A stretch of 64,000 nucleotides of DNA from Dyella acidiphila (GTDB lineage: Bacteria > Pseudomonadota > Gammaproteobacteria > Xanthomonadales > Rhodanobacteraceae): assembly GCF_014863405.1 (NCBI RefSeq), contig NZ_JACZZA010000001.1:62001-126000 (forward strand), written 5' to 3'. The notes under the pieces are model-generated. The model saw nothing but the letters and a program-made list of their open reading frames with translations, ran no database searches and was not told where the DNA came from. A program made the position numbers and the translations under genes. Shown here piece after piece: positions 24,068 through 43,594 of this stretch; position 1 is the stretch's first letter, and every line of letters begins with the position of its first letter.

Positions 24068-25414
<1,347 letters not shown>

Positions 25415-25502: not shown

Positions 25503-26717
25503 TCAGCCCGCGCGCGTGGCCACCACCGGCGGCACCGCCGCCGCGCGCAGCGCCGGCCACAGCACCGCCAGCTGGCCCAGCGCCCACAGCGACACCGCCC
25601 CGGCGCCCAGGTAGTACCAGGGCATGCGGCTCACTTCGTAGTTCTCCATCAGGTAGATATTGATGGCGAAGGCAAGCACCACGCCGAGCGCCACGCCAGC
25701 CGTGCTGAGCAGGAAATTCTCGGTCTGGAAGTAATGCAGGATATGCGTATAGGTCGCGCCCACCGCACGGCGGATGCCGATCTGGCTGCGCCGCTGGCCG
25801 ACCCAGAAGCTGGTCAGCCCCACGATGCCCAGTGCCGTCACCGCCAGCATCACCACGCAGACCATCGCCAGCATCCAGGCCATATTGCGGCTGCCGGCGA
25901 AGTAATCGGCACGCATGTCGAGATAGGTTTTGGGCTCCAGCACCGCGCCCGGCTCCAGCTTGCCCAGCGCCTGCATGGCCTGCTGCAGCACCCGGTCGCG
26001 GTCCTGCGGTGCGCTGCGCAACAGATAGCGGTTCAAGTCGGCGCTGGCGTGCAGTGGAAAGAACAAACTCGAATAGCGCCCGGCCGGCCCGCTGAATTCC
26101 GGATCCTGCGCCAGCACGTCGGCCACTACGCCGATCACCGTCCAGGCGGTCTTGTCGCTGCTGCTGTAGAGCTGCTGGCCCAGCGGCGATTGTCCCGGCC
26201 ACCAGCGCTGGGCGTCGGCCTGGTTGACGATCACCACGTGGCTGCTGGATTGATGGCTGGTGGTGAAGCCGCCCTGCGCATATTCCTCGGCATTGAAGAA
26301 ACGGCCCTGCAGCAGTTGCAGGCCCAGTGCCTGCTCGCCGCCGCGACTGATGAAGTATTGCGAGCTGTTGATCTGGCTGTCCTGCTCCGGATTGGGCGTG
26401 AAGCCGTTGAGCATGGCATCGGTGCTGAGCGGCAAGGCGTTGATCGCTGCCACCGCCTGCACGCCAGGCACGCTGCGCAAGGCGGCCAGGTCGCGCGCGA
26501 TGCTGTCGGCGGCGTGCTGGTCGTCCAGGCCGCCGACATGGATGATCGCGATGCCCGCTTCGTCGATCGCGTTTGCAGCATGTGTGCCGATCAGGCACTG
26601 CGCGATCATGAATACCGCGTTGCACAGCACTGCGCAGGCCAGCGCGATTTCCAGCACGATCAGCAACGCGGGAATGCGGTGTTTGCGCAGGCTGGCGAGG
26701 ATGGGACGGATTTCCAT
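25503..26717 (-). CDS. MacB/FtsX-like permease, B type, pair 5
   Basis: The 404 residues begin with an N-terminal transmembrane helix (LLIVLEIALACAVLCNAVFM), a MacB-PCD-like periplasmic domain (about 40-280) and three C-terminal helices of the FtsX domain (TALGIVGLTSFWVGQRRSQI, then IGIRRAVGAT). The tail VPPVVATRAG is shared by all B types. No ATPase domain is present, unlike E. coli MacB, so it must use the separate ATPase encoded at 38528. It is the last permease of the array, 88 bp before the regulator gene. Start at ATG 26717 (MEIRPILASLRKHR) by comparison with its paralogues. Confidence 0.9.
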   Translation of the reverse strand: MEIRPILASLRKHRIPALLIVLEIALACAVLCNAVFMIAQCLIGTHAANAIDEAGIAIIHVGGLDDQHAADSIARDLAALRSVPGVQAVAAINALPLSTDAMLNGFTPNPEQDSQINSSQYFISRGGEQALGLQLLQGRFFNAEEYAQGGFTTSHQSSSHVVIVNQADAQRWWPGQSPLGQQLYSSSDKTAWTVIGVVADVLAQDPEFSGPAGRYSSLFFPLHASADLNRYLLRSAPQDRDRVLQQAMQALGKLEPGAVLEPKTYLDMRADYFAGSRNMAWMLAMVCVVMLAVTALGIVGLTSFWVGQRRSQIGIRRAVGATYTHILHYFQTENFLLSTAGVALGVVLAFAINIYLMENYEVSRMPWYYLGAGAVSLWALGQLAVLWPALRAAAVPPVVATRAG

Positions 26718-26725
26718 GCGCAGCC

Positions 26726-28027
26726 TCAGGCGGACTTCAATTGCGGGGCGGGGGTAATGACGCAGGCGCGCCAGGCCGGCAGGATGCCGGCGATCAGGCT
26801 GGCGATCAGCGCCACCGCAAACGTACAGGCGAACATCGACAAGTTCAGATGCGCGAGACTGGCATATTCGGCCGGCTGGCGGCGGATGCACCACAAGCCG
26901 AACTCGGCGAACAGCAGCCCGAACGCACCGCCGGCAATGCCGATCAAGCCCGCCTCGACCATGAACTGCGCAAAGATCGCCGGCCGCGATGCGCCCAGCG
27001 CACGCCGCACGCCGATCTCCTTGGACCGGCGCAGGCATTTGGCCAGCAGCAGGCCGACCGTGTTGACGATGCAGATCAGCAGAAAGCTGAAAGCCAGTCC
27101 GGTCTGCATGCGCACGTTGTCCGGCACCACGTGCTGGCTGTCCAGCCAGTGCATCAGCGTCGACAAACTGGACCGCGGCCGCTGGAAGCGCCCCAGTTCC
27201 ACCTGCTGCTGCGCGTAGGCGGTAAGGAATGAAGCATAGGCTGAGGCTGCGCTCTTATCCGGCAACTGCGCCCAGAAGCCCAGCCAGATCACCGGCGCGG
27301 TTTCCAGTACCTCGCGATTGCCGTCGCCATAGGAAAATTCGTTGATCGGATCCAGCGCTGCCGCGCGCGCCGAGGTCAGCGGCACAAACACCGCATCGCC
27401 ATCGCCATAGTTACGGCCACCCAGATACAGCGAGTAAAAATGCGGCTGCGGGCTCCAATGCCTGAGCACGCCGATGATGCGGAAATCCTGGTCGTTGATG
27501 CGCAACATGCGTCCGACGCTGTTGGCACCGCCGAACAGCCGGTTGTTCAGTGCCTCGGCAATCACCACCACCTTCGCGCGCGTCTCGTCATCCGCCGCGC
27601 TCCAGCCACCGCCGTACTGGAACGGGGCTTCGAACATGCCGAAGAAATCCGCGGTGGTCATCACGCCATCGCTGAAGAACGGGCGCTTCTGGGTGGTGGT
27701 CGGGGTCAGCTTCATCCGGCTCATCGCCACGGCCGCCTGGCGCGGCGCGCGGTGCGCGTGCAGCAGGTTCATCGCGTCGACATAGGTCAGCAGCCAGGGC
27801 AGTTTGTCGCTGCGCGAGAATGGATGATCCTTGGGATACGGATCGAGCTGCACATAAAACAGCTGGCTGCTTTTTTCCGGCAGCGGATTGCCGGACAACA
27901 GCCGCAGCAGGGTCAGCGTGGTCATCGACGCACCGATGCCCAGCGCCAACGCCAGCACCATCAAGGCGGTAAGCACCTTGTTGCGTTTGAGGCTGCGCAG
28001 TGCCAGATCCAGATAGTAAGCAAACAT
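26726..28027 (-). CDS. MacB/FtsX-like permease, A type, pair 5
   Basis: The 433 residues begin MFAYYLDLALRSLKRNKVLT, the A-type start shared with the paralogues, then a transmembrane helix ending ALGIGASMTTLTLL. A large periplasmic domain and three C-terminal helices follow (LICIVNTVGLLLAKCLRR, KEIGVRRALGAS). It is closest in style to pair 4 (TLTxL, LSGNPLP, QLDP). Unlike the other four A types it lacks the periplasmic Cys pair: the region reads SYGDGNREVLETAPVIW. It lies 8 bp from its B partner. Confidence 0.9.
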   Translation of the reverse strand: MFAYYLDLALRSLKRNKVLTALMVLALALGIGASMTTLTLLRLLSGNPLPEKSSQLFYVQLDPYPKDHPFSRSDKLPWLLTYVDAMNLLHAHRAPRQAAVAMSRMKLTPTTTQKRPFFSDGVMTTADFFGMFEAPFQYGGGWSAADDETRAKVVVIAEALNNRLFGGANSVGRMLRINDQDFRIIGVLRHWSPQPHFYSLYLGGRNYGDGDAVFVPLTSARAAALDPINEFSYGDGNREVLETAPVIWLGFWAQLPDKSAASAYASFLTAYAQQQVELGRFQRPRSSLSTLMHWLDSQHVVPDNVRMQTGLAFSFLLICIVNTVGLLLAKCLRRSKEIGVRRALGASRPAIFAQFMVEAGLIGIAGGAFGLLFAEFGLWCIRRQPAEYASLAHLNLSMFACTFAVALIASLIAGILPAWRACVITPAPQLKSA

Positions 28028-28052
28028 AAAACGCCTTCTCATCGCCCCCGTG

Positions 28053-29288
28053 TCATACCGAACGTGTCGCAACCACCGGCGGCACCGCCGCCGCGCGCAA
28101 TGCCGGGCCCAGCACCGCAACCTGCCCGATCGTCCACAGGATCAAGGCACCGACCGGAAAATACAGCGCCGGCATGCGCGGCAATTCGTAGTGCACGATC
28201 AGGAACAGATTGATGCCGTAGGCCAGCACCATGCCCAGTCCGATACCCATGCTGGTAAGCAGGAAATTTTCGGTCTGGAAGTAGCGCAGGATGTTGCCGC
28301 GCGTGGCGCCGAGCGCACGCCGCACGCCGATGCTGCGATTGCGCTGCGCCACCCAGAAACTGGCCAGGCCGACGATGCCCAGCGCGGTCACCACCAGCAA
28401 GGCGATGCATACGCCGACCAGGATGCCGGCCATGGCGCGATCGTTCTGGAAAAACTCGTGCCGGTGCTCCTCCATGGTGCCCTTGGCGGTAACGATGCGG
28501 TTGGGATCGTTCGCCCTCAGTTTCTCCAGCGCCGCCTTCAGCACGCGATCGCGATCCTCCGGCGCACAGCGCAGGATGTAGCCATCGCCTTGCTCCAGCG
28601 TCAGCCGCACCGGCCAGACCGAGCTGTAGCCGGCGCCGTTGCTCATGCGGTCACGCCCGGGACGGATCAGGTTGGCCATTACGCCCACCACGGTAAACGG
28701 CATGCCCGGACCGACATAGAACTGCTTACCCAGCGGATCCTGTCCCGGCCACAGCCGCTCGGCCATGTCGCGCGTAATCAGCGTCGAATGCGGCAGCTTG
28801 TCGTACTGCTTGTTGGCCAGCATGGTGAATACGTCGGTGAGATCGACGTATTCCTCGGGCAGCAGATCGCGACCTTCTACCAGCTGCACGCCGAAGGTTT
28901 TCACCAGGTTCTCGCCGAAGTACTGCGTCGCGTCGAGCGTGGCCACGCGCTGGTTGGGATCGGTGCGCACATCCATATTGTTCGAGCCGTTGTCGAATGG
29001 CATTTCGTTCGGCAGGGTCACCACGGTTACACCCGGGATCTGGCGCAATGCGGCCATGTCCTGGGCCGCGCGCGCCATGCCGTCCGTGCGGCCGCCGATA
29101 TTGGACAGCTCCACATAGACCAGCTCGCGCTCGGCAATGCCGCTGGGAATATGGATGCGGTCCAGGCGCTGGCCGATCAGGAAGATGGTGTTGCAGACGA
29201 TGGCGCAGGTGAATGCAATCTGCAGCACCAGCAGGCAGCAGGTCAGCTTGTGCTTGCGCAGAGTGAAGAGAATCGGCCGGATATCCAT
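28053..29288 (-). CDS. MacB/FtsX-like permease, B type, pair 4
   Basis: The 411 residues begin MDIRPILFTLRKHKLTCCLL. The first helix keeps the CN motif (AIVCNTIFLI) of all B types, but also has extra Cys in KLTCC and FTC. The FtsX part reads TALGIVGLASFWVAQRNRSI and IGVRRALGAT, and the tail is VPPVVATRSV. It probably forms one half of a heterodimeric channel with the A-type protein encoded 4 bp upstream. Substrate unknown. Confidence 0.9.
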   Translation of the reverse strand: MDIRPILFTLRKHKLTCCLLVLQIAFTCAIVCNTIFLIGQRLDRIHIPSGIAERELVYVELSNIGGRTDGMARAAQDMAALRQIPGVTVVTLPNEMPFDNGSNNMDVRTDPNQRVATLDATQYFGENLVKTFGVQLVEGRDLLPEEYVDLTDVFTMLANKQYDKLPHSTLITRDMAERLWPGQDPLGKQFYVGPGMPFTVVGVMANLIRPGRDRMSNGAGYSSVWPVRLTLEQGDGYILRCAPEDRDRVLKAALEKLRANDPNRIVTAKGTMEEHRHEFFQNDRAMAGILVGVCIALLVVTALGIVGLASFWVAQRNRSIGVRRALGATRGNILRYFQTENFLLTSMGIGLGMVLAYGINLFLIVHYELPRMPALYFPVGALILWTIGQVAVLGPALRAAAVPPVVATRSV

Positions 29289-29292
29289 GCGA

Positions 29293-30594
29293 TTACGCCT
29301 TCAGTTGCAGGGCGGGAGCGATGTGGCAGGCGCGCCATGCCGGCAGCAGACCTGCCAGCATGGTGGCCAGCACGGCGATGGCGAACGTGGTCAGCAGCAT
29401 TGCCGAATCCATATGTGCAAGCTTGGCGTAGTCCGACGGTTGCTGGCGCACCAGCCACAGTCCAAGCAGTGCCAGCAGCAAGCCCAGCACGCCGCCGACG
29501 AAACCGACTACGCCCGATTCCAGCAGCAGCTGGCCGAACAGCGCGCGGCGCGAGGCACCCAGCGCACGGCGCACACCCAACTCGCCCGCACGGCGCATGA
29601 ACTTGGCCAGCATCAGGCCAACCGTATTGATCAGACAGACCAGCAGGAAGCCCATCGCCAGCCACGCCTGCAGGCGCGTATCGCTGGGCACCACCTGCTT
29701 GTATTCCAGCCATTGCGGCACGTTGCGCAGGCGCATGGTCGGCGGCCGCGCGAAGCGGCCGCTGGCATGCTGGTCTTCGGCATAGTGCTGCAAAAAGCTG
29801 CGGTAGTCCGCCACGCTGGCCGGGGTATCCAGTTGCACCCAGAACTGCATCCAGGTGCAGGTGGATTGTTCCAGCTTGGCCTGCTCGCCACCGCCGTCAC
29901 CCCAACAATCGACCGAGCCGTCGTGTTCCATATGCAGGTCGCGCGAGGTCGACAACGGCAGATAGACCTCCTCGTAGTCGGCATACGCACCCATGTTGAG
30001 ATCGTAGAAGTGCGGATCGGGCCGCCAGTCGCCGAGCACGCCGATAACGCGGAAATCCGCCTCCTGCAGGCGCAGGGTCTTGCCCACGCTGTTCTGGCCG
30101 CCGAACAACTTGTCGTTGAGCGCGGTACTGATCACTACTACGCGCGCCTTGCTGTCGTCTTCGGCGCTGCTCCAGCCGCTGCCATAGTGGAACGGCACGC
30201 CGAACATCGGGAAGAAATCGGCGGTGGTGTAGCGCCCGTTGGCGTGGAACGGATCAAGGTTGGTCTGCGCCGGCTGCAGCGGCACCATGCCGCCGGTCAT
30301 CAAGGCCTGGTGGGTGGCGCGCTTGGCGCGCAGCAGATTCATGCCGTCGATCCAGGTGAGCTGTTCCGGCGGCTCGATACCGGGCACATAGCCGACCGTG
30401 TCGCGCGGATCGAGCTGCGGGAAATACAGCGATCCGCTGCGCCCGGGCAGCGGATCGCCGGACAGCACATGCAGTACGGTCAGCGTGGTCATGCAGGCAC
30501 CGATGCCCAGCGCCACCGCCAGCACCATCAGCGCGGTGAGCACCTTGCTGCGCCGCAGACTGCGCACCGCCAGATCGAGGTAGTAACCGAACAT
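29293..30594 (-). CDS. MacB/FtsX-like permease, A type, pair 4
   Basis: The 433-residue A-type permease starts MFGYYLDLAVRSLRRSKVLT. Its periplasmic domain holds a Cys pair 16 residues apart (DCWGDGG and EQSTCTW), likely disulfide-bonded. The three C-terminal helices include CLINTVGLMLAKFMRR, with GELGVRRALGAS. It groups with pair 5 by the TLTVL and QLDP segments. The only 4-bp gap to the B gene implies coupled translation. Confidence 0.9.
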   Translation of the reverse strand: MFGYYLDLAVRSLRRSKVLTALMVLAVALGIGACMTTLTVLHVLSGDPLPGRSGSLYFPQLDPRDTVGYVPGIEPPEQLTWIDGMNLLRAKRATHQALMTGGMVPLQPAQTNLDPFHANGRYTTADFFPMFGVPFHYGSGWSSAEDDSKARVVVISTALNDKLFGGQNSVGKTLRLQEADFRVIGVLGDWRPDPHFYDLNMGAYADYEEVYLPLSTSRDLHMEHDGSVDCWGDGGGEQAKLEQSTCTWMQFWVQLDTPASVADYRSFLQHYAEDQHASGRFARPPTMRLRNVPQWLEYKQVVPSDTRLQAWLAMGFLLVCLINTVGLMLAKFMRRAGELGVRRALGASRRALFGQLLLESGVVGFVGGVLGLLLALLGLWLVRQQPSDYAKLAHMDSAMLLTTFAIAVLATMLAGLLPAWRACHIAPALQLKA

Positions 30595-30636
30595 GTGCTT
30601 GTCCCCAAAGGTTATCGGGCCGCGGAATCCATCGCC

Positions 30637-31893
30637 TCAGGCCGAACGGGTGGCCACTACCGGCGGTACGTTGGAGGCACGCCGCGCCGGCACGAATACC
30701 GCCGCCTGCCCCAGCACCATCACCACCACCAGTCCGCTCAGCACGTACACCACCGGCATGCGGTCCATCTCGAAATTCTGGATCAGCAGCAGGTTCAGGC
30801 CGATCGCCAGCCCGATGCCGATCACCGCACCCACCCCGGCAATCAGCAGGTTCTCCAGCTGAAAGTAGTGCAGGATGTCGATCTTGCGTGCGCCCAGCGC
30901 GCGGCGCACGCCGATCTGGCGATGACGTTGGCCGACCCAGAAGCTGGTCAGGCCGACGATACCGGCCGCGGTTACCGCCAGCAGGATCAGGCATACCACG
31001 CCCATCAGCACCGCCATGCCGACGTCGGCGCGATACGCTTCGGCGCGGATGTCGGCGAACGAACGCACGCCATCCTCATCGTCGATCACGCGCATCGGGT
31101 TGACCCGGTAGAGCAAATTCGACACCCCGCGCCGCACCGTATCCAGTTGCCCGGGCTTGGTGCGAATGGCATAGCGCGCAAAATTGGAATTCAGGCGTAC
31201 CGGGCCGATGGTCGAGTTCCAGGTGAAAGCGCTGACCCAGCTGCTGTTACTCGACACCTGCAAGCGCTCCACCTCGCCGATGATGGTGCTCGGCTTGGTG
31301 TCGCCATTGAGATAGATGCCCTTGCCGAGCGCATCGCCTTTCGGGAACAGCTTGTCCGCCAGCGCCTTGGTGATGATGACCACGTCAGGTTCGGAGTTGT
31401 CGCGGAAGGCTTTGTTGGTGACATCGCCGGCGTTGAAATTGCGCCCGGCGACCAGGTGCACGCCCAGCGTGGCCAGCACTTGGTCGTCGCCGTAGTAAAA
31501 CACCGTGCGCGCATCGCCGCCGCGCAGATCGGTGCCCGGCTTGAGCGCTACCGCGCCGCCCCAGGTCGAATTGAGCAGCGGAATCGTATTGATCGGCGTT
31601 ACCGAAGACACGCCCGGCATGGCGCGCAGTGCGGCCAGGTCCTCGCGCAGCATCGAATCCTGCTTCTGGATGCTGGCGGCATCATCGCCGCTGGGCGCGC
31701 CGACCCACTGCTGCTCGACCAGCAGCAGGTTGCTTTCATCCATGCCGGTGGGCCGCTGCACGTTTTCCACGCGGCTGTAGATGATGAAGATGGCGTTGCA
31801 CACGATCGCCAGGGTCAAGGCGATCTGCAAGGCGATCAGCACGACGCCGGCCTTGTGCTTGCGCAATGCGGCAATGATGGGGGGCAAGTTCAT
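30637..31893 (-). CDS. MacB/FtsX-like permease, B type, pair 3
   Basis: The 418-residue B-type permease starts MNLPPIIAALRKHKAG. Helix 1 contains LALAIVCNAIFIIY. The FtsX domain carries AAGIVGLTSFWVGQRHRQ and IGVRRALGARKIDILHYFQL, and the tail is VPPVVATRSA. Its N-terminal segment ALRKHKAG groups it with the B proteins of pairs 1 and 2. No ATPase motif is present. Confidence 0.9.
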   Translation of the reverse strand: MNLPPIIAALRKHKAGVVLIALQIALTLAIVCNAIFIIYSRVENVQRPTGMDESNLLLVEQQWVGAPSGDDAASIQKQDSMLREDLAALRAMPGVSSVTPINTIPLLNSTWGGAVALKPGTDLRGGDARTVFYYGDDQVLATLGVHLVAGRNFNAGDVTNKAFRDNSEPDVVIITKALADKLFPKGDALGKGIYLNGDTKPSTIIGEVERLQVSSNSSWVSAFTWNSTIGPVRLNSNFARYAIRTKPGQLDTVRRGVSNLLYRVNPMRVIDDEDGVRSFADIRAEAYRADVGMAVLMGVVCLILLAVTAAGIVGLTSFWVGQRHRQIGVRRALGARKIDILHYFQLENLLIAGVGAVIGIGLAIGLNLLLIQNFEMDRMPVVYVLSGLVVVMVLGQAAVFVPARRASNVPPVVATRSA

Positions 31894-31904
31894 GACGTCG
31901 CTCC

Positions 31905-33230
31905 TCAGTTCGATTTCAGTTGCAGCGCAGGTTGCACGCGCGACGCACGGAAGGTGGGATACAGGCCGGCCAGCATGGTCGCAACCACCGCCACCAGCAG
32001 GGTCAGCAGCAGCAGGCCGATGTCCAGCCGGGCCAGCGAGGCAATTTCCTTGGGCAGCACCCAGCTCACGCTATGGATGCCGATCCAGGTAAGCAGCAAT
32101 CCCAACACGCCGCCGGTCAATCCAACGATGGCCGCTTCGATCAGGAATTGCGTGTAGATCGCCATGCGCGGCGCGCCGAGCGCACGGCGCACGCCGATCT
32201 CCGAGCTGCGGCGCAGGAACTTGGCGAGCAGCAGGCCGGCGGTGTTGACCAGGCACACCACCAGCAGGCCCAGGGCCACCACCAGCGAGATCTGGGTATC
32301 GCTGGGCACTACATGTTCGCTGTCCAGCCATTCATGCAGATCGCGCAGGCGATTGTTCGGTGCCCAGCTGAAACGGCCCGCTTGTTTCTGGTCGCGTGCA
32401 TAGCCGTCCAGATACTCGCGGTAGGCAGCAGCCGCCGCCTTGTCGTCCAGCTCGACCATGAAGGAGATCCACACGCAGGTGGACTGCTGCAGGCCGACGA
32501 AACCGGAGCTCTTGGGAATTTCCGAGCAGTTGGTATTGCCGTTGTTGGGCATGCCGATATCGATGGCACGCAGGAACGGGATGAACACGTCTTCGTGACC
32601 GGTGGTAAAGCCGCCGGTATTGACCACGTCGAAGAACACCGGCTTGGGACTCCAGTTGTCCAGCACGCCGACCACGCGGTAGTCCTTGCCGTCGATATTG
32701 ACCGTCTTGCCTACGCTGTTGCCGCCGCCGAACAGCTTCTGGTTGATCTCGCCATTGAGCACTACCACTGCGGCACGCTGCGTATCCTCGGCGCTGCTCC
32801 AACCGCTGCCGTATTTGAACGGCGCGTCGGTCATCGGGAAGAACTCGCTGTAGACCGCATGGCCGCCGACATTGATCGGATGCTTGCTGGCGTCGGGCGG
32901 CACGATCGACGGCGATATCGCATACATCGCCGATTGATACTTGGCGCGGTGATCGCGCATCAGGGCGATCGCGTCCAGATAGTCCATCGCATCCGGCGGA
33001 TCGTTATTGCTGCTGCCGTCACGGTGACCCTTCTGTCCCCACATATCGATCTGCGGCACATACAGGTGAGCCGACTTCCACGGAATCGGATCGCCCGAGA
33101 CGGCGCGGAACACCGAATAGCTGGTCATCGACGCGGCCACGCCAAAGGCGATCGCCAGAATCATCAGCGCGGTCAAACCGGGGCTTCTTTTTAGACTGCG
33201 TACTGCCAGATCAACGTAATAGCCCAGCAT
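31905..33230 (-). CDS. MacB/FtsX-like permease, A type, pair 3
   Basis: This 441-residue A type starts MLGYYVDLAVRSLKRSPGLT at ATG 33230; an in-frame ATG nine codons upstream is less likely. It shares SYSVFRAVSGDPIP and QIDMWG with pairs 1 and 2. A periplasmic Cys pair 17 apart (TNCSEIP and QQSTCVW) is present. C-terminal helices include CLVNTAGLLLAKFLRR and EIGVRRALGAP. It lies 11 bp upstream of its B partner. Confidence 0.9.
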   Translation of the reverse strand: MLGYYVDLAVRSLKRSPGLTALMILAIAFGVAASMTSYSVFRAVSGDPIPWKSAHLYVPQIDMWGQKGHRDGSSNNDPPDAMDYLDAIALMRDHRAKYQSAMYAISPSIVPPDASKHPINVGGHAVYSEFFPMTDAPFKYGSGWSSAEDTQRAAVVVLNGEINQKLFGGGNSVGKTVNIDGKDYRVVGVLDNWSPKPVFFDVVNTGGFTTGHEDVFIPFLRAIDIGMPNNGNTNCSEIPKSSGFVGLQQSTCVWISFMVELDDKAAAAAYREYLDGYARDQKQAGRFSWAPNNRLRDLHEWLDSEHVVPSDTQISLVVALGLLVVCLVNTAGLLLAKFLRRSSEIGVRRALGAPRMAIYTQFLIEAAIVGLTGGVLGLLLTWIGIHSVSWVLPKEIASLARLDIGLLLLTLLVAVVATMLAGLYPTFRASRVQPALQLKSN

Positions 33231-33278
33231 GGGGCACCTCCACCTGTTATTGACCATCCCCGCGAGGGGATCCCTCCG

Positions 33279-34505
33279 TCATATCGATCGCGTCGCTTCC
33301 ACCGGCGGCACGCGCGAGGCGCGCAACGCCGGCGCCAGCACGGCGCCCTGCCCCAGCAACAACAGCGTCACCACGCCGGCCAGCAGATATCCCGGCGCCA
33401 GCCGGTCCAGCTCGAATTGCTTCATCAGCCACAGATTCAGCCCGATCGCGAGCACCCCGCCCAGCACTACGCCGCCTACTGCAATCAGCAGGTTCTCGGT
33501 CAGGAAGTAGCTGAGAATGTCGTGCCGGGTGGCGCCCAGCGCGCGGCGCACGCCGATCTGCTTGCGCCGCTGGCCGACCCAGAAACTGGTCAGGCCGACG
33601 ATGCCGGCACCGGTGATCAGCAGCAGGATCACGCTGATGCCGCTCATCAGGATCGCCATGCCGCGGTCGTCGCGATAAGCCTGTTCGCGGACCTGTGCGA
33701 AGCTGCGCACACCATCCTTGGGACTGATCACGCGCAGCCGATTGGCCGCATACAAAGCAGCGCGAACGCGATGCATGACCTCATCCAGCTGACCGGGCTG
33801 CACACGCACGATGTACTGCACGATCGGGGTCAGCTCGCGATACGGGATCAAGGTGGAGTAATCGGCCCACTTGGCGAAACTGGTATCCACCCACGGCGTG
33901 CGCAGCTCATCCACGATGCCGATCACGATGCTCGGCTTGGCGCTGATGTAGATCGGCTGGCCGATCGCCGACCGCTGCGGAAACATGAGCGCCGCCAGTG
34001 CGCGCGTAATGATCACCACGTCCGGCTTCACATAGCCCTGCCGGTCGAGCTGGCCGATTTCGTCCGGCCGGAAATTGCGCCCTTCCACCAGTTTCAGGCC
34101 CAGCGTGGCCAAGGCATTTTCGTCGGCAAAATAGATGCCCGAAGTGGTCACCGACTTGAGCTTGTCCGGCGAGTGACTGACGCCCAGGGCCATGCCGCCG
34201 TTGCCCAGCGGAAAGGTGTTGGTGGCATAGACATTCGCCACGCCCGGCACCTTGCGCAAGGTATCCAGGTCGGCTGCCATCAGCGAGGCCATCTGGTCGG
34301 AGCCCGGCTTGCCGGCCCATTGATTGCCGATTACCAGCAGGCTGGCTTCGTCGATGCCGCTGGGCTGGTGCAGGCGCACCAGTCGGGCGTGAATGATGAA
34401 CAGCGCATTGCAGACGATCGCCAGCGTCAGGGCGATCTGCGCGGCGATCAGCAAGGTGCCGGCCTTGTGGTGGCGAAGTGCGGCGAGGATCGGTTTGATC
34501 TGCAT
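33279..34505 (-). CDS. MacB/FtsX-like permease, B type, pair 2
   Basis: This 408-residue B type starts MQIKPILAALRHHKAG at ATG 34505. GAGG lies 8 nt before that ATG and only 2 nt before the ATG at 34511, which decides the start. Helix 1 is LTLAIVCNALFIIH. The C-terminal part has GAGIVGLTSFWVGQRRKQ, IGVRRALGAT and tail VPPVEATRSI. The gene begins 10 bp after the stop of the A-type gene of its pair. Confidence 0.9.
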   Translation of the reverse strand: MQIKPILAALRHHKAGTLLIAAQIALTLAIVCNALFIIHARLVRLHQPSGIDEASLLVIGNQWAGKPGSDQMASLMAADLDTLRKVPGVANVYATNTFPLGNGGMALGVSHSPDKLKSVTTSGIYFADENALATLGLKLVEGRNFRPDEIGQLDRQGYVKPDVVIITRALAALMFPQRSAIGQPIYISAKPSIVIGIVDELRTPWVDTSFAKWADYSTLIPYRELTPIVQYIVRVQPGQLDEVMHRVRAALYAANRLRVISPKDGVRSFAQVREQAYRDDRGMAILMSGISVILLLITGAGIVGLTSFWVGQRRKQIGVRRALGATRHDILSYFLTENLLIAVGGVVLGGVLAIGLNLWLMKQFELDRLAPGYLLAGVVTLLLLGQGAVLAPALRASRVPPVEATRSI

Positions 34506-34515
34506 CGTCATCGCC

Positions 34516-35841
34516 TCATTGAGACTTCAGCTGCCACGCCGGCTGCACGTGGGCCGCGCGCCAGGTGGGATAGAACGCGGCAACCACCGTCGCGACCAGC
34601 GCGCACAACAAGGTCAGGCCGATCAGGCCCACGCTCATATGCGTCATGCGCGCAATCTCCGGATCGAACACCAGCCCGATGCTGAGCATGCCGACGCCGG
34701 TCAGCAGCAAGCCCACAACGCCGCCGGCCACGCCGACCATCGCCGCCTCGGCCAGATACTGCGTCCAGATTTCCCGCCGCGAGGCGCCGAGCGCGCGGCG
34801 CACACCGATTTCCCCGGCGCGGCGCATGAACTTCGCCAACAGCAGGCCCACCGTGTTCACCAGGCAGACCAGCAGAAAGCCGAGCGAGAGCAGCAGCGAC
34901 ATACGCGTTTCCGGCGGCACCACTTTTTCGTGCTGCAGCCATTGGGTCAGGTCGAACAGTTGCGCATTGGGTGGCCAATGGAAGCGGCCGGCGCGGTTCT
35001 GTTCGGCGCCATAGCCTTGCAGGTAATCCCGATAAGCCTGCACCGCCGCACTGTCCGGCAGTTCGACCCAGAGCGAGACCCATACGCAATTGGAACGCAG
35101 CCAGCCGTCCCAGCCCGGATCGCGGCCGGCACTGCCGTAGCAATTGTTGTTGCCGGCGGTGTCGGTATGCGTATCTACCGCCTGCGTAAACGGCAGGATG
35201 AAATCCGGCGGATCGTTGAAGCCGCCGGAGTTATTCACGTCGTAGAAGCGCGGACGCGGATTCCAGTCGGCCATCACGCCCACGATGCGGTAGTCATGAT
35301 CGTCCAGCCGCACGCTGCGGCCCACGCTGTTGGCGCCGCCGAACAACTGCTGGTTGAGTTGGCTGCTGATCACCACGACTGCTGCGCGCGCATCGTCCTG
35401 CTCGCGGTTCCAGCCACCGCCGTAGACGAACGGCGTCTCGAACATGGGAAAGAAGTCGGCGTAGGCGGCGTACCCGGTAACGTAGAACGGTTCGCGTGAG
35501 ACGTCGGCCGGGATCAGCGTGTGGTTCAACGGGTAGATCGCCGTCTGCCGAGCCGCCTTGCGGTCGCGCATCAGCGCCATCGCATCGGTATAGGTGAACG
35601 CATCGGGGATGTCGTCGCCATTGCCCCGCTCCTGCGGACCCCACACATCGATCAGCGGCGCAAACAGCTGTGCGGATTTATCCGGCAGCGGATTGGCCGA
35701 TACCGCGCGGAATACCGCATAGGTGGTCATCGACGCAGCCACGCCCACGCCGATGGCCAGCACCATCAGCACGGTCAACACCGGGTTGCGCCGCAAGCTG
35801 CGCACACCCAGGCGTAGGTAATAGGCAAGCATCGACTCCAT
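34516..35841 (-). CDS. MacB/FtsX-like permease, A type, pair 2
   Basis: This 441-residue A type starts MESMLAYYLRLGVRSLRRNP. The first ATG is placed correctly behind GGGAGAGGA, so I keep it over the internal ATG at 35832. The helix-1 region reads ASMTTYAVFRAVSANPLP, and IDVWGPQ follows. A Cys pair 18 apart (NNCYGSAG and LRSNCVW) lies in the periplasmic domain. FtsX helices follow with CLVNTVGLLLAKFMRR and EIGVRRALGAS. Confidence 0.9.
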   Translation of the reverse strand: MESMLAYYLRLGVRSLRRNPVLTVLMVLAIGVGVAASMTTYAVFRAVSANPLPDKSAQLFAPLIDVWGPQERGNGDDIPDAFTYTDAMALMRDRKAARQTAIYPLNHTLIPADVSREPFYVTGYAAYADFFPMFETPFVYGGGWNREQDDARAAVVVISSQLNQQLFGGANSVGRSVRLDDHDYRIVGVMADWNPRPRFYDVNNSGGFNDPPDFILPFTQAVDTHTDTAGNNNCYGSAGRDPGWDGWLRSNCVWVSLWVELPDSAAVQAYRDYLQGYGAEQNRAGRFHWPPNAQLFDLTQWLQHEKVVPPETRMSLLLSLGFLLVCLVNTVGLLLAKFMRRAGEIGVRRALGASRREIWTQYLAEAAMVGVAGGVVGLLLTGVGMLSIGLVFDPEIARMTHMSVGLIGLTLLCALVATVVAAFYPTWRAAHVQPAWQLKSQ

Positions 35842-35887
35842 CTATGTCCTCTCCCTTAGTGGAACAATTTGTAGTGCAGCGGCCTGC

Positions 35888-37120
35888 TCATGCCGGCCGC
35901 GTCGCTTCGATCGGCGGCACGCGCGACGCACGCAAGGCCGGCGCCAGGACCGCGCCCTGGCCAAGCAGCAGCAGAATCACGATGCCAGCCAGCACGTAGG
36001 TCACCGGCAGCAAGTTCAGCGTGAAGCGAGTGACCAGCCAGAGATTGAGGCCGAAGGTCAGCAGCACGCCGATGGCCACGCCACCCAGGCTGATCAGCAG
36101 GTTTTCGGTCATGAAGTAGTGCAGGATGTCGCGATGCGTCGCACCCAATGCGCGGCGCACGCCGATCTGCCTGCGCCGCTGGCCGACCCAGAAGCTGGTC
36201 AGGCCGACGATGCCCGCGCCGGTGATAGCCAGCAGCACCACGCAGATGATGCCCATCAGGATCGCCATGCCGCGGTCCTTCTCGAAGGCGCGATGGCGCA
36301 CTTCGGCAAAGCTCAGCAAGCCGTCCTTGGGATCGATCATGCGCATGCGGTTTTCCGCGAACAGCGCCTTGGGCGCGGCGTGCATGGCCTCCTCCAGCTG
36401 ACCCGGCTTGGCGCGCACCACATAGGTAAGCCCCCAGGGCATGGCGATACGGATCGGCGTGATCATCGATTCGCCCAGATACGAGGCACTCCAGCTCGAT
36501 ACATCCTGCCGATGCAGCACGTCCACGATGCCCACGATAGTGATCGGGCTGCTGGTCATGGCGTAAAAGGTCTTGCCCAGCGCGTCGCCGTTCGGATACA
36601 GCTTGTCGGCCATCGCCTTGCTGATGATGGCGACCGCGGGAACGATGCTGTCGCGCAGGCCCTTGTCCTGAATTTCGTCGGCACGGAAATCGCGTCCGGC
36701 GATCAGCTTCAAGCCGAGCGTGCGCACGAAGTTTTCGTCGCCCGTATAGAACGATGCGTCCGTGGTGGGAGAAAGCTGGTCCGGCTTCATCGTGATGAAG
36801 TTGTCCCAGGTGCTGGGACCGAACGGATAGTTGTTGACGGCCGAAACGTCCTGCACGCCCGGCACCTGGCGCAGCGCGGCAACATCTTCTTCGATGTGCT
36901 GCACCGCCTGCTGGGTGGAATATTGTTCGCCCCACATATTTCGGATCACGAACAGGTTCGGCTCATCGACGCCGCTCTGCTCAGACAGATGCGACAGGCG
37001 CTGATTGATGATGAACAGCGCATTGCAGACGATGGCCAAGGTCAGGGCAATCTGCAGGGCGATCAGAATGGTGCCGGCTTTATGGCGGCGCAGGGCGGCG
37101 AGAATCGGCTGGATTTGCAT
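35888..37120 (-). CDS. MacB/FtsX-like permease, B type, pair 1
   Basis: This 410-residue B type starts MQIQPILAALRRHKAGT. Helix 1 is LTLAIVCNALFIIN. Two-thirds is periplasmic. The C-terminal helices contain GAGIVGLTSFWVGQRRRQ, IGVRRALGAT and tail VPPIEATRPA. Near-identity of its first 30 residues with the pair 2 and 3 B proteins points to tandem duplication. Confidence 0.9.
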   Translation of the reverse strand: MQIQPILAALRRHKAGTILIALQIALTLAIVCNALFIINQRLSHLSEQSGVDEPNLFVIRNMWGEQYSTQQAVQHIEEDVAALRQVPGVQDVSAVNNYPFGPSTWDNFITMKPDQLSPTTDASFYTGDENFVRTLGLKLIAGRDFRADEIQDKGLRDSIVPAVAIISKAMADKLYPNGDALGKTFYAMTSSPITIVGIVDVLHRQDVSSWSASYLGESMITPIRIAMPWGLTYVVRAKPGQLEEAMHAAPKALFAENRMRMIDPKDGLLSFAEVRHRAFEKDRGMAILMGIICVVLLAITGAGIVGLTSFWVGQRRRQIGVRRALGATHRDILHYFMTENLLISLGGVAIGVLLTFGLNLWLVTRFTLNLLPVTYVLAGIVILLLLGQGAVLAPALRASRVPPIEATRPA

Positions 37121-37135
37121 GATCGTTGGCTCGCC

Positions 37136-38446
37136 TCAGTTCGACTTCAATTGCCAGGCCGGCTGTACTTGCGCGGCACGCCAGGCGGGATAGAAAGCAG
37201 CTGCCACGGTGGCAAAAATCGCCGCCATCAGGGTCATGCCGATCAGCGACAGATCCAGATGCGCCAGGCGCGCTACCTCCGGTTCGAACAACAGGCCCAC
37301 GCCGGACATGCCCGCCGTGGTGAGCAGCAGACCCAGTACGCCGCCGGCCAGCCCGACCGCCGCGGCCTCCACCAGGTACTGCGCGTAGATCTCGTGCCTG
37401 GTCGCACCCAACGCGCGGCGCACGCCGATCTCGCCGGCGCGGCGCATGAACTTGGCCAGCAGCAGCCCGATCGTGTTGACCAGGCAGATCACGAAGAAGC
37501 TCAGCGCCACCACCAGCGAGATACGGCTTTCCGGCGGCACCACTTCCCTCACATCGAGCCACTTCATCACGTCGGGCAAACGCACATTCGGCGCCCAGGC
37601 AAAGCGACCGGCGCGCTGCTGGTCGGCCGAATAAGCTTCCAGGAATTGGTGATAGCGGGTGACCTCGGCGGCCGTATCCAGCTCGACCCAGGGCATCAGC
37701 CAGACGCAGTTGCTTTGCAGATACTGGTCCCAGCCGTTGTAGGTGATCCGGCCGCGGCAGCTGTTGCGGCCGGCGTTGTCGGTATGCAGGTCCAGCGCGC
37801 GATTGAGCAGAAAGTAGAAATCCGGCGGGTTGTCAAAGCCGGCCTCGCTCCATACGTCGTAAAAGCGCGGCGAAGGATCCCAGTGCCGGGTCACGCCGAC
37901 GATGCGGTAGTCGTGCCCGGAAAGGGTGATCTTCTGGCCGACGCTGTTCGCGCCGCCGAACATGCGCTGGTTGAAGGCGTCGGTAATGACCACATCGGCG
38001 GCGCGCGCATCGTCGTCGGCCGTGCTCCAGCCGCTACCGTACTGGAACGTCACATTGAACATGGTGAAAAAGTCGGCTGTTACCGCGTAGCCGGTGCTGG
38101 CCGAGGGCACCGCATTGGCTTCATGCGGCAGCACCGTCTGCATCACCTGGTAAATCAGCGTCATGCGCGAAGCCTGGTGTGCGCGCAGCAAAGCCATGGC
38201 ATCGACATAGTTGAGCGCACCCGGCGGCTCGCCATGCTCGTTTTGCTGCGGGCCCCAGCTGTCGATTTCCGGCATGAACAGCTGCGCGGATTTTTCCGGA
38301 ATGGGATCGCCGGATACCGCGCGGAACACCGAGTAGGTGATCATCGAGGCGGCCACGCCAAAGCCGATGGCCATCACCATCAACGCGGTAAGCATGGGAT
38401 TGCGCCTGAGGCTGCGCAGACCGAGTTGTGAGTAATAGGCGAACAT
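37136..38446 (-). CDS. MacB/FtsX-like permease, A type, pair 1
   Basis: This first permease of the array is 436 residues long and starts MFAYYSQLGLRSLRRNPMLT. It has ASMITYSVFRAVSGDPIP, IDSWGPQ, a Cys pair 17 apart (RNSCRGR and LQSNCVW), and the C-terminal blocks CLVNTIGLLLAKFMRR and EIGVRRALGAT. An 81-bp gap separates it from the ATPase gene, the largest gap in the adaptor-to-pair-5 run; it shows no terminator. Confidence 0.9.
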   Translation of the reverse strand: MFAYYSQLGLRSLRRNPMLTALMVMAIGFGVAASMITYSVFRAVSGDPIPEKSAQLFMPEIDSWGPQQNEHGEPPGALNYVDAMALLRAHQASRMTLIYQVMQTVLPHEANAVPSASTGYAVTADFFTMFNVTFQYGSGWSTADDDARAADVVITDAFNQRMFGGANSVGQKITLSGHDYRIVGVTRHWDPSPRFYDVWSEAGFDNPPDFYFLLNRALDLHTDNAGRNSCRGRITYNGWDQYLQSNCVWLMPWVELDTAAEVTRYHQFLEAYSADQQRAGRFAWAPNVRLPDVMKWLDVREVVPPESRISLVVALSFFVICLVNTIGLLLAKFMRRAGEIGVRRALGATRHEIYAQYLVEAAAVGLAGGVLGLLLTTAGMSGVGLLFEPEVARLAHLDLSLIGMTLMAAIFATVAAAFYPAWRAAQVQPAWQLKSN

Positions 38447-38527
38447 GCTGGTTCCCGTTGAAGCCCTTGTTCCCTCGCCGCCATTCCCGCTTGTGCGCGA
38501 ATGGCGGCGTCCGCAGCGATGCCGCTA

Positions 38528-39259
38528 TCAGCCGCGCACTTGGCCGGCGGCAGCGGTATACGCCGTGTGGAAGCGCGGATCCTCCGCCAGATCCACCACC
38601 TGGCCATCGATGATGTGCACGTTGCGCTGCGCACGCGCGGCCAGTTCCGGATCGTGCGTCACCATCACGATGGTGGCGCCCTCGCGATGGATCTCTTCGA
38701 GCAGTTCCAGCACGCCGCGGGCCATCTGCGTATCCAGGTTGCCGGTCGGTTCGTCGGCGAGCAGCAGGCGCGGGCTGCCGGCGAGTGCGCGGGCGATCGC
38801 CACGCGCTGTTGCTGGCCGCCGGAGAGTTCGGCCGGATAATGCTTGGCGCGCGAGGCCAGGCCGACGCGCTCCAGCGCGCCCATGATGCGTTCCTTGCGC
38901 TCCGGCGCCTTCATGCCGCGATAGCGCAGCGGCACTTCGACGTTGTCGAACACGTTCAGATCGGGAATCAGGTTGAAGGCCTGGAAAATGAAGCCGATCT
39001 TTTCGTTGCGGATCTTCGAACGCGCGTTGTCGTCGAGGTTGCTCACTTCGATATTGTCGAGGTGGTATTCGCCGCCGGTGAAGGTTTCCAGCAGGCCGGC
39101 GATGGTGAGGAAGGTGGTCTTGCCCGAACCGGACGGGCCGGTCACGGCGACGAACTCGCCTTCCTTCACATCGATGTTGAAATCGCGAAGCGCGTAGGTT
39201 TCCACCACTTCGGTGCGATAGACCTTGGACAGATGCGTCATCTTCAGCATGGGTTTCAT
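38528..39259 (-). CDS. ABC transporter ATPase, MacB/LolD type, sole ATPase of the array
   Basis: This 243-residue ATPase has Walker A GPSGSGKT (41-48), Q-loop IFQAFNLIPDLNVFDNVE, signature LSGGQQQR, Walker B LLLADEPTGNLD and H-loop VTHD. These features place it in the MacB/LolD/FtsE mechanotransmission family, whose ATPases drive periplasmic conformational work and not membrane passage. It is the only ATPase in an operon with ten permease genes, so it probably serves all pairs. Confidence 0.95.
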   Translation of the reverse strand: MKPMLKMTHLSKVYRTEVVETYALRDFNIDVKEGEFVAVTGPSGSGKTTFLTIAGLLETFTGGEYHLDNIEVSNLDDNARSKIRNEKIGFIFQAFNLIPDLNVFDNVEVPLRYRGMKAPERKERIMGALERVGLASRAKHYPAELSGGQQQRVAIARALAGSPRLLLADEPTGNLDTQMARGVLELLEEIHREGATIVMVTHDPELAARAQRNVHIIDGQVVDLAEDPRFHTAYTAAAGQVRG

Positions 39260-39276
39260 CCTTTGGTTGGTAGCCG

Positions 39277-40548
39277 TCAGCGGCTGATTACGACGCGCTG
39301 TGCGCCTTTGAAATTGTCGGTGCCGGAGATCACGATGTTGTCGCCTTCCTTCAGGCCATCGAGAATCTCCACTTTGTCGATGCTGCTTTCGCCCACGCGG
39401 ATCGGCGTCTTGGTGGCGATGCCGTCGCGCACGATGTAGGCATAGCTGCCGCCGGATTCATCCACGAACGAGCCACGCTGCACGGTCAGCACATTGTTGC
39501 GATGGTCGAGCAGGATGCGCACCGACAGGCGCTGGTTCTGGCGCAGCTGCTTGGGCGTTTCGCCGTCGAAGCGCACGCGCGCCGCCACTTCGCCATTGAC
39601 CACTTCGGGCGAGATCGCACTGACGATGCCCTTCCAGGTGTTGTCGTTGCCGCTGATTTCACCGTTCATGCCGATGGCGAGGTCGCGCGCAAAGCTTTCC
39701 GGCACCTTCACTTCCACTTCCAGCGCGGACAGGTCGATCACGCTGAGCAGCTGTGCGTCCTTGGCCACGGTGGCGCGTTCGGCGATAAACAGCTGGCCGA
39801 CCTGGCCATCCACCGGCGAGCGCACATTGAGGTTGTCGACCTGGCGCTGCAGATCCTGCACCACATATACCTGGCGATCGTGCGCGAGCTTCTTCGCCTT
39901 GACGTCGAAGTTCTCGCTGTCGTTGTTCAGGCCCAGATCGTTCTTGGCGTGAGCCAGCGTGATGTTGGCCTTGTCCAGGGTGTCCTGCGCGCGATCCACT
40001 TCCATCTTCGGCACGCCGCCACCCTTGTAGGCGGTTTCGTAGCGATCCAGGTCGCGCTTGGCGGTTTCCACGTCGATCTTGGCGTTGTCGTAGGACTTCT
40101 GCATTTCCGAGCTTTTCTTGCGCGCATCGACCTGCGCCTGCAGATAGGCCACTTCCATGCCGTCGGCGTTGGATTGCTCCTGCGCCAGCTTGTTGCGCAG
40201 CTCGGGACTGTCGATCACCGCCAGAACCTGTCCTTTCTTCACGGTGTCGCCGGCGTGCACCTGCAAGACCACGGCGCCGCCATAGGTGGCGTATAGCGTG
40301 GGACTGACCGCGGCCACCACCTGGCCTTCGGCAGCGATGTCGCGGATAAACGGCCCGCGCTGCACGGTGGCGAAAGCCAGCCGCGACGCACTCACCGATG
40401 CATCGGCCGAAAACAGGCGCATGATGCCGGGCATCACCAGCGCCAGCACGACGACGGCCGCCACGGCGGCACCGATCCACAGAAGTTTTTTCTTCGGGCT
40501 CGGCTTGACCTGAACGAGTCGGTCCTGAGCTGAAGTGTCACGAATCAT
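39277..40548 (-). CDS. MacA/HlyD-type periplasmic adaptor (membrane fusion protein)
   Basis: This 423-residue protein has an N-terminal membrane anchor (LWIGAAVAAVVVLALVMPGI). A split lipoyl domain follows (LQVHAGDTVKKGQVLAVID and VRSPVDGQVGQLFIAE), with an alpha-hairpin coiled coil (about 125-230) and beta-barrel/MP domains. It is first in the operon, 45 bp after a sigma-54 promoter. MacA-type adaptors bridge the permease to a TolC-like duct; no TolC gene is in the operon, so that partner must come from elsewhere. Confidence 0.93.
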   Translation of the reverse strand: MIRDTSAQDRLVQVKPSPKKKLLWIGAAVAAVVVLALVMPGIMRLFSADASVSASRLAFATVQRGPFIRDIAAEGQVVAAVSPTLYATYGGAVVLQVHAGDTVKKGQVLAVIDSPELRNKLAQEQSNADGMEVAYLQAQVDARKKSSEMQKSYDNAKIDVETAKRDLDRYETAYKGGGVPKMEVDRAQDTLDKANITLAHAKNDLGLNNDSENFDVKAKKLAHDRQVYVVQDLQRQVDNLNVRSPVDGQVGQLFIAERATVAKDAQLLSVIDLSALEVEVKVPESFARDLAIGMNGEISGNDNTWKGIVSAISPEVVNGEVAARVRFDGETPKQLRQNQRLSVRILLDHRNNVLTVQRGSFVDESGGSYAYIVRDGIATKTPIRVGESSIDKVEILDGLKEGDNIVISGTDNFKGAQRVVISR

Positions 40549-40562
40549 GGTGTGTTCCCTGA

Positions 40563-40578
40563 CCGCGGACAGTGCGGC
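40563..40578. repeat. Direct repeat, leader copy, CCGCGGACAGTGCGGC
   Basis: The same 16 bases occur at 40678-40693. This copy lies downstream of the -12 element, in the predicted leader of the adaptor mRNA; the other overlaps the upstream dyad. Confidence 0.7.
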
Positions 40579-40592
40579 CCCACACCTGACGC

Positions 40593-40608
40593 AGCAATCC
40601 GCGTGCCA
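40593..40608 (-). promoter_or_regulatory. Sigma-54 (-24/-12) promoter of the permease-array operon
   Basis: On the minus strand the sequence is TGGCACG-CGGA-TTGCT, matching the sigma-54 consensus TGGCACG-N4-TTGCW at every position. It points at the adaptor gene, 45 bp from its ATG. With transcription starting about 12 nt after the GC of the -12 element, the leader would be about 35 nt. The operon encodes an NtrC-family activator, as such a promoter requires. Confidence 0.9.
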
Positions 40609-40673: not shown

Positions 40674-40718
40674 CTGTCCGCGGACAGTGCGGCGGACAGA
40701 TGGACAAGTGTCCGGACA
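40674..40718. promoter_or_regulatory. TGTCC/GGACA dyads: candidate activator binding sites
   Basis: CTGTCCGCGGACAG (40674-40687) is a perfect 14-bp palindrome and TGTCCGGACA (40709-40718) a perfect 10-bp one. GGACA-AG-TGTCC (40702-40713) overlaps the second. They lie roughly 65-125 bp upstream of the -24/-12 promoter, the usual position for enhancer sites of sigma-54 activators. The cognate protein is presumably the response regulator at 24068. Confidence 0.65.
40678..40693. repeat. Direct repeat, upstream copy, CCGCGGACAGTGCGGC
   Basis: Second exact copy of the 16-base element at 40563-40578; it covers the right half of the 14-bp palindrome. Confidence 0.7.
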
Positions 40719-41391: not shown

Positions 41392-41598
41392 TTACTTGGT
41401 GAGGATCAGCTTGCCGTTGCGGGTCAGCCGCAGGTGGTATTCGCTGCCCAGGTGCTGGATCACCAGCTCGCGCTCGCCGGCCAGCAGCCGCTGGCTGGAA
41501 ATGCGCCGCACCGGCGTGGCGGCCGGGCTTGCATCAACGCTGGCCAGCATGGGCGGCTGGATGGGACGAGAAAGGGTAAGCGTTCCGGTGGTGGACAT
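41392..41598 (-). CDS. hemP: Hemin uptake protein HemP
   Basis: This 68-residue protein ends in the HemP family block [20 protein letters not shown] followed by [11 protein letters not shown]. HemP is a small protein needed for haem uptake in several proteobacteria, where it can act as an activator of haem-receptor expression. I take ATG 41598 ([12 protein letters not shown]) as the start because the longer frame overlaps the Fur box. It is the first gene after that Fur box. Confidence 0.9.
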
Positions 41599-43513: not shown

Positions 43514-43594
43514 GACTCGTCCTCGTTCCGGCAGTGACTGGCAGATGGAAGGTGAACACGACCGGCGCCAACGCAGCGTCATGTCCAAGCCGGC

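Follow-up and report, generated by a model that had tools for sequence, protein, structure and literature searches.

The window analysed here, a 64,000-nucleotide (nt) stretch of the genome of the soil bacterium Dyella acidiphila (GCF_014863405.1, NZ_JACZZA010000001.1, positions 62,001-126,000), contains a minus-strand operon for a periplasmic adaptor, one ATP-binding cassette (ABC) ATPase, five alternating A-B permease pairs, an NtrC-type regulator and a histidine kinase. With moderate confidence the operon is read as the core of a MacAB-TolC-like (type VII ABC) trans-envelope exporter that has a shared motor and exchangeable heads. The system extends past the operon: it includes A-B pairs dispersed in the 5.07 Mb genome (28 contigs), genes for small membrane peptides and perhaps tolC. 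Coordinates are window positions unless preceded by a locus handle.

Permease pairs and the ATPase

The first gene encodes an HlyD/MacA-type periplasmic adaptor of 423 amino acids (aa) (39277-40548; Pfam HlyD_D23/HlyD_3, TIGR01730 above cut-off). It is followed by a LolD/MacB-type ATPase of 243 aa (38528-39259; ABC_tran), the sole close copy in the genome. The permeases are A1 (37136-38446, 436 aa), B1 (35888-37120, 410 aa), A2 (34516-35832), B2 (33279-34505), A3 (31905-33230), B3 (30637-31893), A4 (29293-30594), B4 (28053-29288), A5 (26726-28027) and B5 (25503-26717). Last come an NtrC-type response regulator (24068-25414; response regulator, sigma-54 AAA+ and Fis helix-turn-helix domains) and a histidine kinase with two predicted membrane helices (22573-23946; HAMP and HATPase). 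Gene calls and family scans thus bear out the gene order of the original prediction, made from the window sequence. That prediction also gave gaps of 4-48 bp across the pair run; they are indeed small, but the upper bound becomes 55 nt with the start codons chosen here. The other gaps are 17 nt (adaptor-ATPase), 81 nt (ATPase-A1), 88 nt (B5-regulator) and 121 nt (regulator-kinase). All gap sizes depend on start codons, and those of A2 and A3 are a matter of choice.

A genome-wide PF12704 search matches all ten operon permeases. The Pfam scan covered six of them (A1, B1, A2, B2, A4, B4) and the NCBIfam scan six (A1, B1, A2, B2, A3, B3), while A5 and B5 were assigned by the PF12704 match and identity comparison. 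Both MacB_PCD and FtsX were above cut-off in all six Pfam-scanned proteins, the domain content of type VII ABC (MacB/FtsX) permeases.

Identities among the operon permeases are 43-60% within A and 38-55% within B, and 18-22% between A and B. The same relatedness is repeated in both series: pairs 1 and 2 are closest, then 3, with 4 and 5 apart. On the ADOP profile (TIGR03434, 803 positions) A1, A2 and A3 cover positions 5/7-401 and B1, B2 and B3 cover 411-801/802. Over the eight pairs of the D. acidiphila genome, A-distances and B-distances are correlated (r=0.896; 5 of 10,000 permutations as high). The A and B trees agree in their main split; the position of L003 differs and some B nodes are weak. 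A natural A-B fusion was found in genome G080 (L202:4789-7362, G080:C33), where a single 857-aa frame contains A as residues 2-435 and B as residues 450-857. Profiles of A and B match PDB chains of MacB, LolC and YtrF, and in the PDB profile alignment B covers nearly the whole MacB permease part and A aligns in two stretches. Because of the strict alternation, the ADOP halves, the co-divergence and this one natural fusion, one A and one B very probably form a unit. The same evidence upholds the A-B unit within the predicted heterodimeric permeases, and the heterodimer itself would be its likely form. Homodimers (A-A or B-B) were considered and are disfavoured by the alternation and the G080 fusion.

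The number of permeases was compared with that of ATPases in a genus sample of 16 Dyella-group genomes. Every genome has exactly one close ATPase (96-100% identical), and five of the 16 have a second one at 55-57% identity, which in D. acidiphila belongs to the separate L005 set described below. The A-type permeases (E<=1e-100) number 8, 7, 12, 8, 7, 8, 6, 5, 17, 9, 14, 10, 1, 7, 7 and 8 per genome, 134 in total. Main operons hold 78 of these (1-8 pairs each, the count per genome that the original prediction had proposed as a check) and 56 lie elsewhere, with a caveat that the G149 and G150 operons end near contig ends and their pair counts are possibly too low. In 15 of 16 genomes there are therefore more pairs than cognate ATPases. 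The exception is G017 (one pair, one ATPase), in which the ATPase is 99.6% identical to that of the window over 240 residues and the A permease is 51% identical to A1.

The dispersed pairs read amount to 25 of the 56 and come from four of the 16 genomes (three from D. acidiphila, six from G125, six from G115 and ten from G080). None of the 25 has a close ATPase beside it in the stretches read, among which L003 is a whole 5.4-kb contig and L068 and L071 have short flanks. At L187 a distant ABC ATPase (51 bits) lies about 1.5 kb off. Another ATPase of the D. acidiphila genome was also considered as a partner of the dispersed pairs. The eight next-best ATPases, all of at least 126 bits, each adjoin permeases of their own; weaker ones, some of which reach 40% identity over part of their length, were left out. 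Besides the fused set of L005, we take these to be Met-, Fts-, sulfate-, Ybb- and Lol-type sets. The L005 set (L005:4093-13862, G000:C27) is parallel in layout: it consists of an adaptor, an ATPase (56% identical), two fused permeases of about 800 aa, an NtrC-type regulator and a kinase. It has a near-consensus -24/-12 element before the adaptor and lacks TGTCCGCGGACA, the palindrome described below.

It is likely that one ATPase is common to many pairs, and numbers and neighbourhoods speak well for such a shared motor. Where one ATPase had been predicted for five pairs, the counts agree (one close ATPase against 1-17 A genes), and the pairs would share it physically as well.

The sigma-54 regulon, small membrane peptides and tolC

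A perfect palindrome, TGTCCGCGGACA, lies upstream of the operon at 40675-40686. It is a conserved upstream site and the presumed site of the NtrC-type regulator. A sigma-54 -24/-12 element, TGGCACGCGGATTGCT, is found 66 nt from it on the minus strand (40593-40608), and an imperfect copy of the palindrome with one mismatch matches between promoter and adaptor (40560-40571). The regulon was defined by the pattern palindrome, 50-80 nt, TGGCA-N6-TTGC. This pattern has 59 matches, distributed over all 16 genus genomes, and the reversed-pattern control has none. The gene downstream is the main-operon adaptor at 16 sites, an A gene elsewhere (with B adjoining) at 11 and a small peptide gene at 32, which accounts for 59 of 59. 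Palindrome and -24/-12 element are 66 nt apart in 16 of 16 operons and 64-68 nt apart in the other sites. All 59 sites have at least one further half-site within 90 bp upstream; for random stretches of that length from the fetched loci the figure is 11%. The complete operon through the kinase was seen in eight of the 16 genomes (window, L045, L053, L054, L055, L056, L058, L066); the others leave the stretch read.

With a slightly looser pattern, sites were found in 107 of 147 family genomes and in 22 of 26 genera, the control again being 0. A small part of the sites outside the genus was examined as 25 loci (L080-L104): 11 lead to an adaptor, 2 to an A gene, 11 to a peptide gene and one to none of these. 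A chance origin of the promoter pattern was rejected on the zero counts of the reversed control in the 16 and in the 147 genomes. The predicted sigma-54 control of the operon is thus supported by a conserved -24/-12 element with a palindrome at fixed spacing, the promoter itself being predicted from sequence, and there is little doubt about a sigma-54 regulon as defined by these sites. From its co-occurrence with the site, the operon's NtrC-type regulator would be the protein that binds TGTCCGCGGACA.

The palindrome alone was discarded as a marker, since with one mismatch allowed it is no commoner in the D. acidiphila genome (20 per strand) than the control (22 per strand). Seven perfect copies are present in that genome: five with a -24/-12 element, one at tolC and one at L010. 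The last (L010:4804-4815, G000:C4) has extra half-sites and is without a -24/-12 element or an obvious target. A palindrome with a 3-nt centre gave one match. A GlrR-type motif (TGTC-N10-GACA) was also considered for the site, and the literature gave nothing decisive. The only match to the letters TGTCCGCGGACA in open-licence PMC papers concerns a human gene.

The palindrome and -24/-12 layout is shared by two of the three dispersed pairs of D. acidiphila and is carried by 10 of the 25 dispersed pairs overall, in one case (L197) only with a relaxed -24. Four dispersed pairs without a sigma-54 site (L002:2947-7820, L186, L195, L201) stand directly behind an M56-peptidase-like gene, presumably BlaR1-like, which suggests a second kind of control for those pairs. 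Three further pairs (L194, L198, L200) stand behind regulator genes that we take to be of the LytS/LytTR type.

The 32 peptides of the genus are 27-75 aa long and form two classes. The long class (59-75 aa) has one member in each of the 16 genomes, and the short class (27-34 or 51-53 aa) is found in 13 of them. Members of both begin with a K-[FL]-E-like motif and have an LF/FF-x-x-C helix, and seven peptides checked for hydropathy have one hydrophobic stretch each. Nearly all long-class peptides have two cysteines near the C-terminus, a tail that would be periplasmic by the positive-inside rule. The 28-aa peptide is under purifying selection: the ratio of nonsynonymous to synonymous polymorphism (pN/pS) is 0.18 (11 distinct sequences), and nucleotide identity is 82% in frame against 25% just downstream. 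For the long class, pN/pS is 0.44 among 15 sequences of the genus, not counting the one of 59 aa, and 0.54 among 26 sequences once other genera are included. Four representatives had no Pfam or NCBIfam match above cut-off, one of them reaching 20 of 50 bits with NF040661. G017, with its single pair, keeps both classes.

In D. acidiphila the gene for the 73-aa peptide (L011:4780-5001) has two genes behind it: the first encodes another peptide of this family, 50 aa long, and the next is presumably TrmL-like. In some other genera, too, peptide genes seem to lie before the latter gene. The 28-aa peptide gene of this genome (L013:5414-5500) is followed by L013:5570-6727, whose product is presumably serine-hydrolase/beta-lactamase-like.

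A close tolC is present in 15 of the 16 genus genomes, and in 14 of these 15 a perfect TGTCCGCGGACA lies upstream of the gene preceding it (presumably pcm-like), followed by a strongly conserved sigma-70-like promoter stretch. In the window itself the operon contains no TolC-family gene. Such a gene is inserted between the ATPase and A1 in Rhodanobacter panaciterrae (L116) and Roseateles toxinivorans (L140); with TIGR01844 the two score 299 and 257 bits against a cut-off of 225, which links a TolC-family protein to the system. TolC is probably the exit duct.

Relatives, distribution and a possible link to dssA

In MacAB-TolC, MacB has ATPase and permease in one chain and works as a homodimer with MacA and TolC. 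The Dyella system is alike in its MacB_PCD and FtsX fold (by profile), its HlyD/MacA-type adaptor, its MacB/LolD-type ATPase and a TolC in or near the regulon. It differs in that ATPase and permease are separate chains, that the permease chains are of two different kinds, that many pairs accompany one ATPase, and that a sigma-54 regulon with peptides is present. The MacB equivalog NF007826 calls for more than 966 bits in one chain; the separate genes here yield 212 bits (ATPase) and 46-64 bits (six permeases). The adaptor reaches 65 bits with the MacA equivalog NF008606 (>342 bits) and 134.7 bits with the wider TIGR01730 (cut-off 94.9).

The resemblance to ADOP lies in the alignment of A with the first half and B with the second, and in the fused form in G080. 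TIGR03434 describes a single duplicated chain of more than 622 bits, whereas the Dyella permease is split in two genes and has its own adaptor, ATPase and regulators; the six halves scanned reach 166-192 bits, with N and C halves consistent. The darobactin exporter DarBCD has equivalog cut-offs of 700, 450 and 375 bits, and all Dyella scores lie below them (DarB 22-32, DarC 86, DarD 255). The ATPase nevertheless scores best with DarD among all NCBIfam models and the adaptor resembles DarC; DarB is a single chain, and DarBCD has no pair array.

LolCDE sets two unlike permease chains on a homodimeric ATPase (PMC5985334), and the same arrangement would hold in Dyella. Scores with the LolD model (214 bits; cut-off >308) and the LolC/E models (at most 37 bits; cut-offs >362-540) are too low, and the Dyella system has in addition an adaptor and many pairs. 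The shared-ATPase importers MsmK, MsmX and their kin, in the passages available, likewise use one ATPase for several permeases. They are sugar importers with binding proteins and unrelated permeases, and sharing is experimental there, unlike in Dyella, where it is deduced. Taken together, the Dyella system appears to be a variant of the MacB-type (type VII) tripartite exporters that would work like MacAB-TolC with LolCE-like heterodimeric heads. The array was not found described in the literature searched (titles and abstract openings of open-licence PMC papers), which does not prove its absence from print.

An A-type match (E<=1e-40) is present in 139 of 147 family genomes. Among the best 80 named loci found by the ATPase, 40 have exactly one pair and then the regulator; their genera include Solimonas, Roseateles, Lysobacter, Arenimonas, Massilia, Duganella and others. 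In the same set Luteibacter has two pairs and two Stenotrophomonas have three. Many Rhodanobacteraceae loci exceed the fetched 20 kb, with several pairs each. Whole-genome A counts in seven named genomes were 9, 11, 6, 9, 6, 4 and 3. A core with a single pair is thus widespread, and the strongest expansion is seen in Rhodanobacteraceae. The original prediction suggested that the amplified array could define a distinct system; the five pairs are there, but with one pair in half of those 80 loci and up to 8 in main operons of the genus, the array is only one state of a variable system.

Downstream of the kinase the strand continues with genes for an SPFH (HflK/QmcA-like) protein (21551-22510; HflK 77 of 159 bits, below cut-off), a presumably NfeD-like protein (20990-21439) and what we take to be a ThrE-like exporter (19619-20881), neither of the last two having a match in the NCBIfam scan. 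Membership of the SPFH and ThrE-like genes in the system is uncertain. From the adaptor through the ThrE-like gene 17 genes share the strand, which then switches. Another same-strand frame, ending at 40723, lies upstream of the promoter. Farther upstream, also on the minus strand, are a small frame of 68 aa (41392-41598, presumably HemP-like) with a Fur-box-like AATGAGAATAATTATCATT upstream, and a gene (42695-43588) for an Ala/Pro-rich protein that starts with a signal-like stretch and that inspection by eye assigns to no obvious family.

In Rhodanobacter R179, dssA is an 'ABC transporter permease' gene in an operon of 17 genes, and without it the root growth inhibition induced by flg22 is reported not to be suppressed in full (PMC11928319, 2025). 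Orthologues, defined at >30% identity, are reported in 74.7% of Xanthomonadales genomes and, elsewhere in the culture collection examined, only in some Oxalobacteraceae (PMC11928319). Rhodanobacter Soil772 carries five pairs in its version of the system, and its run from adaptor to ThrE-like gene comprises the same 17 genes; this strain is taken to be the paper's Rhodanobacter S772, there said to carry dssA (PMC11928319). The likeness lies in the 17 genes, the permease, and the occurrence in Xanthomonadales and some Oxalobacteraceae; the passages available describe no paired arrays, shared ATPase or regulon (PMC11928319). It is fairly likely, as a candidate match, that R179 dssA belongs to this operon. 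The match is only suggestive because the >30% threshold would catch many permeases and because the number 17 depends on the chosen operon start, the same strand continuing upstream of the adaptor.

Proposed machine and alternatives

In the proposed machine, each permease head would pair an A chain with a B chain as a heterodimer, corresponding to an ADOP-type permease split in two. An ATPase homodimer could power any of several such heads, five from the operon and three from elsewhere in the genome, and the single HlyD/MacA-type adaptor would connect them to TolC. The histidine kinase would sense an envelope cue and activate the NtrC-type regulator. The latter, on TGTCCGCGGACA, would turn on via sigma-54 the operon, some dispersed pairs and the single-helix membrane peptides of 27-75 residues. 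The variable periplasmic domain probably lets each head deal with a compound of its own, periplasmic or embedded in the membrane, which the head would expel by mechanotransmission. AcrZ offers an analogy for a small accessory subunit. Accordant with it, the foremost candidate role of the peptides, held at slightly below even confidence, is that of accessory subunits tuning or selecting heads, with cargo as the alternative.

Several observations weigh against this picture. The dispersed pairs without a sigma-54 site (15 of 25) need not be co-produced with the ATPase. Independent promoters for each pair had been named in the original prediction as evidence against a single shared machine, and outside the operon this is partly the case, as several of these pairs follow other regulator-like genes. 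At L083, the exception among the 25 sites outside the genus, no adaptor, A or peptide gene follows. The tolC palindrome is absent in G017, a genome with a single-pair version of the system, and no -24/-12 element lies behind the tolC palindrome (L209-L223). As a sigma-70-like stretch is found there instead, the same activation mechanism is not claimed for tolC.

The pairs outside the regulon, several of them behind the presumed M56-peptidase-like or LytTR-type genes, fit a different explanation, in which the ATPase serves a single pair or a few and the others are ATPase-free orphan pairs that do not export periplasmic compounds but bind or sense them, or else signal to the kinase. BceAB-type modules report to a kinase in this way, and the ADOP family by its name denotes duplicated orphan permeases. 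The kinase, with only two predicted helices and a short loop between them, would also suit this role. However, every operon pair and 10 of the 25 dispersed ones have the same type of promoter as the ATPase operon, and the ATPase-facing loop is conserved. In MacB the loop between helices 2 and 3 contacts the ATPase; its mean majority fraction is 0.79 versus 0.57 for the periplasmic domain in 39 A sequences, and 0.84 versus 0.48 in 37 B sequences. Orphan pairs are therefore considered rather unlikely.

That the co-regulated peptides are themselves the cargo is about as unlikely. The machine would then mature short peptides that are anchored in the membrane and carry a two-cysteine loop, and release them as signals or antimicrobials. 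In line with this, 32 of 59 sites precede peptide genes, the long class combines a helix with a two-cysteine tail, and both classes are kept in the single-pair G017. The 28-aa class, however, has little beyond its conserved helix and no tail, and its low pN/pS fits a membrane subunit better. Mere gene amplification, with near-redundant copies raising the dosage of one exporter and no division of labour, would agree with the paralogy of the array pairs, the closest of which are neighbours (1-2, 4-5), but it is improbable given the 38-60% identity within A or within B, the greatest divergence being in the periplasmic domain, and, if dssA is a member, the phenotype of an in-frame deletion of one permease, which would favour non-redundant heads (available passages of PMC11928319).

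An exporter whose exchangeable heads share one motor thus remains the preferred reading. ABC exporters are usually pictured as dedicated machines. A bolder and more speculative version is a hub-and-spoke exporter, in which a single ATPase and a single adaptor would drive as many as 17 interchangeable heads from operon and dispersed loci. The co-induced peptides of 27-75 aa would be parts dedicated to these heads, choosing or gating them or being released by them, and the machine may underlie the dssA effect on plant immunity in Rhodanobacteraceae. If true, one motor with expandable heads would give new export specificities without new engines, like the shared-ATPase sugar importers. With the regulon come an exactly defined site and a family of tiny, conserved membrane peptides, for which no library gave a name among the four representatives scanned. 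For the published plant-commensal trait linked to dssA, the system would be a concrete candidate machine.

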